From: Tupaia tana
Taxonomy: Eukaryota; Chordata; Mammalia; Scandentia; Tupaiidae
Direction of reading: 5' to 3'
Assembly (NCBI GenBank): GCA_026018925.1
Contig: JAKSZU010000018.1
Span: forward strand, 32,769,807 to 32,833,806
DNA: 64,000 nt
Made by a program: the position numbers and the translations under genes. Below are positions 57,162 through 57,286 of this stretch, one piece after another (position 1 is the first letter of the stretch; every line of letters begins with the position of its first letter). The notes under the pieces were generated by a model. The model ran no database searches, was not told the DNA's origin, and saw only the letters and a program-made list of their open reading frames with translations.

Positions 57162-57286
57162 CTGGCGTGCCATTCCCTCCGCAGGTTCTGGCGTGTGGTG
57201 AGCAAAGCAAGGATGGCAGTCAAGATTTCATTCCTTTGTTCCACAGGGAGCCCCTCTCTTTTAACCTCGTGAAGCACGGCATTTGT
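57162..57286 (-). CDS. FTO: FTO exon 8 (internal coding exon, partial CDS)
   Basis: On the minus strand a pyrimidine-rich tract ends in ttcttctag at 57287, followed by 125 bp open in one frame (41 codons plus two bases) and a donor reading AG|gttagt at 57161-57156. The peptide starts [13 protein letters not shown], contains [12 protein letters not shown] and ends [10 protein letters not shown]. This matches human FTO around residues 414-455 as I remember it, in the C-terminal helical domain that packs against the catalytic jelly-roll. FTO is a nuclear Fe(II)/2-oxoglutarate dioxygenase that demethylates m6A and m6Am in RNA. The iron and cofactor ligands lie in earlier exons outside the window. 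The last codon is split (AG|), so the intron is phase 2. Relative to my memory of human, two residues differ (ASLTA reads ALLTT). The exon looks intact and functional; no other FTO exon is visible. Confidence 0.97.

Follow-up and report, generated by a model that had tools for sequence, protein, structure and literature searches.

What is the short open frame that lies on the minus strand of a 64,000-nucleotide stretch of Tupaia tana DNA (hereafter the window, C297:32769807-32833806): a working exon, a relic of one, or nothing but chance? The earlier note had read it as exon 8 of the FTO gene and had drawn from it both the identity of the whole window and the direction in which the gene is transcribed. 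We consider it virtually certain that 57162-57286 is an ordinary internal coding exon, the eighth of nine, of FTO on the minus strand, with exon 7 lying 49.5 kb upstream of it and exon 9 lying 176.6 kb downstream. As such, it is already known in kind, the orthologue of a well-studied gene, and offers nothing new in itself. What was directly observed of this exon comprises its sequence, frame, phases, collinearity, single match in the genome and neighbours, which are presented below together with the rival explanations on which they bear.

The exon, its frame and its splice signals

The exon and the dinucleotides that flank it, which were recognised from the sequence and by weight-matrix scores, are the following.

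57162..57286, minus strand: FTO exon 8, 125 nt, coding for 41 residues, with two further bases (AG) that open the following codon
57287..57288, minus strand: splice acceptor AG of intron 7, preceded by a T/C-rich tract
57160..57161, minus strand: splice donor GT of intron 8 (CAG/GTTAGT)

Read on the minus strand from 57286 to 57162, with slashes for the borders, the exon runs ...TTCTTCTAG/ACAAATGCC ... CACGCCAG/GTTAGT. Frame 1 is open over all 41 codons, the remaining two frames contain one and two stops, and the length of 125 leaves two bases (AG) over for a codon shared with exon 9. The earlier description of a 125-bp minus-strand exon with acceptor, donor and open frame was thus accurate, and the word 'intact' that went with it is justified for the exon and its frame.

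How much can be made of the splice signals is another matter. These were scored on the minus strand of the window with a simple weight matrix based on general splice-site frequencies. Scores at least as high as that of the exon 8 donor are found at 30 of 3615 GT sites, and scores at least as high as that of its acceptor at 298 of 4473 AG sites (the sites of exon 8 being counted in both cases). The donor consensus is GTRAGT, from which the exon 8 donor departs by a T at +3. Acceptor-donor pairs that are 50-250 bases apart and score at least as well number 38, with an open frame in 13 of them (exon 8 again included), so that splice signals alone prove little. It is these 13 pairs, with equal or better signals on the same strand, that lend some credit to the idea that the frame is open by chance and that the signals on either side of it merely resemble splice sites. 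The idea nevertheless has practically no probability left once the peptide is considered, since 39 of its 41 residues match FTO, with an E value of 2e-19. In short, the splice signals of exon 8 are moderate, and it is the protein match that settles the identity of the exon.

The protein match and the exons on either side

When the exon 8 peptide was compared with all PDB chains, FTO accounted for each of the 12 matches listed at E <= 10, the best having the E value just quoted, and no other gene was among them. In the opposite direction, a tblastn search of the window with the peptide of the PDB chain gave E 3e-22 at exon 8 and E 0.94 at the next place. Against Pfam FTO_CTD (PF12934), the exon alone (41 aa) reached 26.5 bits (25.1 in the genome-wide search), just short of the cut-off of 27, which we attribute to the shortness of the piece; no NCBIfam family was found for the peptide.

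Human FTO is 505 residues long. Counted back from C-terminal residue 505, an anchor taken from the length of bovine FTO in PMC4540293, exon 8 codes for residues 414-454, which lie in the C-terminal domain. Two substitutions, S441L and A444T, three residues apart, set this stretch apart from the PDB FTO chain. That they represent a lineage-specific change altering the packing of the C-terminal domain seems very unlikely. None of the residues by which FTO binds Fe(II) and 2-oxoglutarate is, presumably, found in exon 8.

The genome from which the window comes (2.95 Gb in 1198 contigs) contains a single match for the exon 8 peptide at E <= 0.001 (two candidates scored). A genome-wide search with the FTO_CTD profile returned four matches at E <= 1, three of them above the cut-off, and nothing else (10 of 10 candidates scored). 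All four are on the minus strand of C297, the contig that holds the window, and cover positions 1-50, 48-89, 89-130 and 127-169 of the profile as the coordinates descend. These four collinear places are exons 6, 7, 8 and 9 of FTO, with sizes of 144, 120, 125 and 154 nt. Exon 7 ends in GGTGTG/gtaagt, in phase 0, while exon 9, the start of which reads ctcttccag/GTGCCAG, provides the last base of the codon opened in exon 8. When spliced, the exons have matching phases and give a single open frame of 180 codons followed by TAG, the product of which scores 207 bits for FTO_CTD (PF12934; cut-off 27). Against the PDB, this 180-aa product gave FTO in 12 of 12 matches at E <= 0.001, with E 1.7e-114 for the best FTO chain and a match that extends to the C-terminal end. 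Together with the 12 of 12 matches of exon 8 alone, this bears out the claim that the peptide matches the C-terminal domain of FTO.

PDB 6aej (which we take to be human FTO protein, alpha-ketoglutarate-dependent dioxygenase FTO) and other FTO chains have the same C-terminal end as the present gene and share with it 167 of the 180 C-terminal residues, this being the identity to the best chain; the two proteins differ by 13 substitutions, of which the two in exon 8 have been given above. By analogy with the known gene, exon 8 would be spliced and expressed in the same way, and the FTO protein to which it contributes would be expected to demethylate RNA in a 2-oxoglutarate-dependent manner.

Gene layout and neighbours

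The exons on either side determine how the window is divided, with intron lengths obtained by hand count on the printed sequences. Upstream of exon 8 and on the same strand, FTO_NTD (PF12933) is found above cut-off at two places, which cover 54-138 and 246-275 of the 275 profile positions; the N-terminal half of FTO lies outside the assembled exons.

57287..64000 of the window, minus strand: 3' part of FTO intron 7, 6,714 of 49,462 bases (exon 7 ends at C297:32876555)
1..57161 of the window, minus strand: 5' part of FTO intron 8, 57,161 of 176,567 bases (exon 9 starts at C297:32650400)
C297:32953573-32953824, minus strand: FTO_NTD match, profile 54-138 of 275
C297:32899318-32899407, minus strand: FTO_NTD match, profile 246-275 of 275

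Since exons 6-9 are ordered on a single strand of one contig with matching phases, the window is indeed made up of intron 7, exon 8 and intron 8 of FTO; the collinear minus-strand exons, with those for FTO_NTD upstream, likewise agree with the claim that the gene is transcribed from the minus strand. The number in 'exon 8' was obtained by counting upstream from the last exon, which carries the stop, on the basis that the gene has nine exons (as described in PMC8735611 and PMC4540293), exons 1-5 having been located in part. PMC8735611 gives human FTO as nine exons across about 410 kb. In PMC4540293, the amplicon coordinates for the bovine gene are 183.6-184.2 kb for exon 7, 235.7-236.5 kb for exon 8 and 420.9-421.7 kb for exon 9, on the reference of that study. 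On these figures the bovine spacing is about 52 + 184 kb, with proportions that agree with those of the present gene, although introns 7 and 8 are somewhat shorter here (49.5 and 176.6 kb).

This layout bears on two further explanations. A processed, intronless fragment of an FTO retrocopy would be expected neither to be flanked by AG and GT, as exon 8 is, nor to have exons 7 and 9 at distances of 49.5 and 176.6 kb rather than adjoining it, and its probability is negligible. An unprocessed, duplicated copy of FTO that has become a pseudogene would have kept its introns, and is for us an extremely improbable reading in the face of (i) the single genomic match for the exon 8 peptide at E <= 0.001, (ii) four collinear FTO_CTD exons with no other match at E <= 1, (iii) the unbroken frame of exons 6-9 and (iv) neighbours of the expected kinds, that is, RPGR1_C exons and an IRX3-like frame, the IRX3 name being tentative. 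An internal exon of FTO itself is thus what we retain, and the outcomes that the earlier note had named as speaking against it (another gene as the best match, flanks belonging elsewhere, a pseudogene copy) were not found by these searches of this assembly.

As for these neighbours, four RPGR1_C exons lie on the 5' side of FTO, on the plus strand of C297 (33186409-33205638), opposite to FTO and running away from it, and three further RPGR1_C exons, presumably those of RPGRIP1, are on C309. The exons on C297 are placed and oriented as RPGRIP1L would be, and probably belong to it, position being what sets them apart from RPGRIP1; the synteny with RPGRIP1L that the earlier note had suggested checking is, in this sense, present.

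On the 3' side, 162 kb past the FTO stop, the plus strand carries, at about C297:32488200, an IRX3-like frame, which we name tentatively, taking its start, MSFPQLGYQYIRPLYP..., to be that of IRX3 and a later stretch to resemble the Iroquois box. The CpG ratio is 0.76 in the surrounding 10 kb (C297:32480001-32490000), whereas 13 other stretches of that region range from 0.16 to 0.35. No homeobox was found by tblastn with an IRX-type homeodomain in 140 kb around this frame, which can be explained by a 456-base run of N (C297:32488748-32489203) between the IRX3-like start and the Iroquois-box-like stretch, at the expected place of the homeobox; two pieces of the region that were scanned with Pfam gave no family. 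A genome search with Homeobox_KN, in which 150 of the 158 candidates were scored, listed at least 22 matches. Three of those listed are on C297, and just one of the three, at 31436751, lies less than 2 Mb from FTO, at a distance of 1.2 Mb. We take this homeodomain to be IRX-type.

The rest of the window

Exon 8 anchors the window, so that other findings in these 64 kb are to be read as lying within introns 7 and 8 of FTO. A search of the window with peptides representing portions of FTO exons 7 and 9 produced nothing convincing (lowest E 0.043), as the intron sizes predict. Stop-to-stop frames that are 75 aa or longer and lie mostly outside SINE copies number 72; the 26 of these that were scanned against Pfam gave no family at the curated cut-off, the four families listed, with E 0.015 to 0.092, all being below it. 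ARAGORN found no tRNAs, and Rfam gave no matches in the window at gathering thresholds.

The window also contains a family of SINEs, each some 245 bp long without its A tail, with 31 BLAST places, 20 of which are near full length. The 31 places include the following.

1978-2222, SINE copy
6271-6537, SINE copy
7600-7885, SINE copy
12439-12717, SINE copy
14988-15256, SINE copy
15755-16017, SINE copy
26032-26287, SINE copy
38501-38756, SINE copy
47759-48031, SINE copy
61138-61389, SINE copy

When compared with their majority consensus, the 20 near-full-length copies differ from it by 6-11% in 8 cases and by 17-28% in the other 12. The element, which we take not to be Alu, as would suit a window that is not human, carries a B-box-like GGTTCGAGTCC; the one copy compared with Rfam matched nothing there at E <= 1, so that a tRNA origin stays unproven, and a literature text search found no occurrence of its longer sequence strings in the papers covered. 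The 29 repeat regions that were masked cover 7,273 bp in all, or roughly 11% of the 64 kb. There are also 29 tandem repeats, the two with the highest scores being (ACAAA)13.6 at 31503-31571 and (TG)21.5 at 61563-61605.
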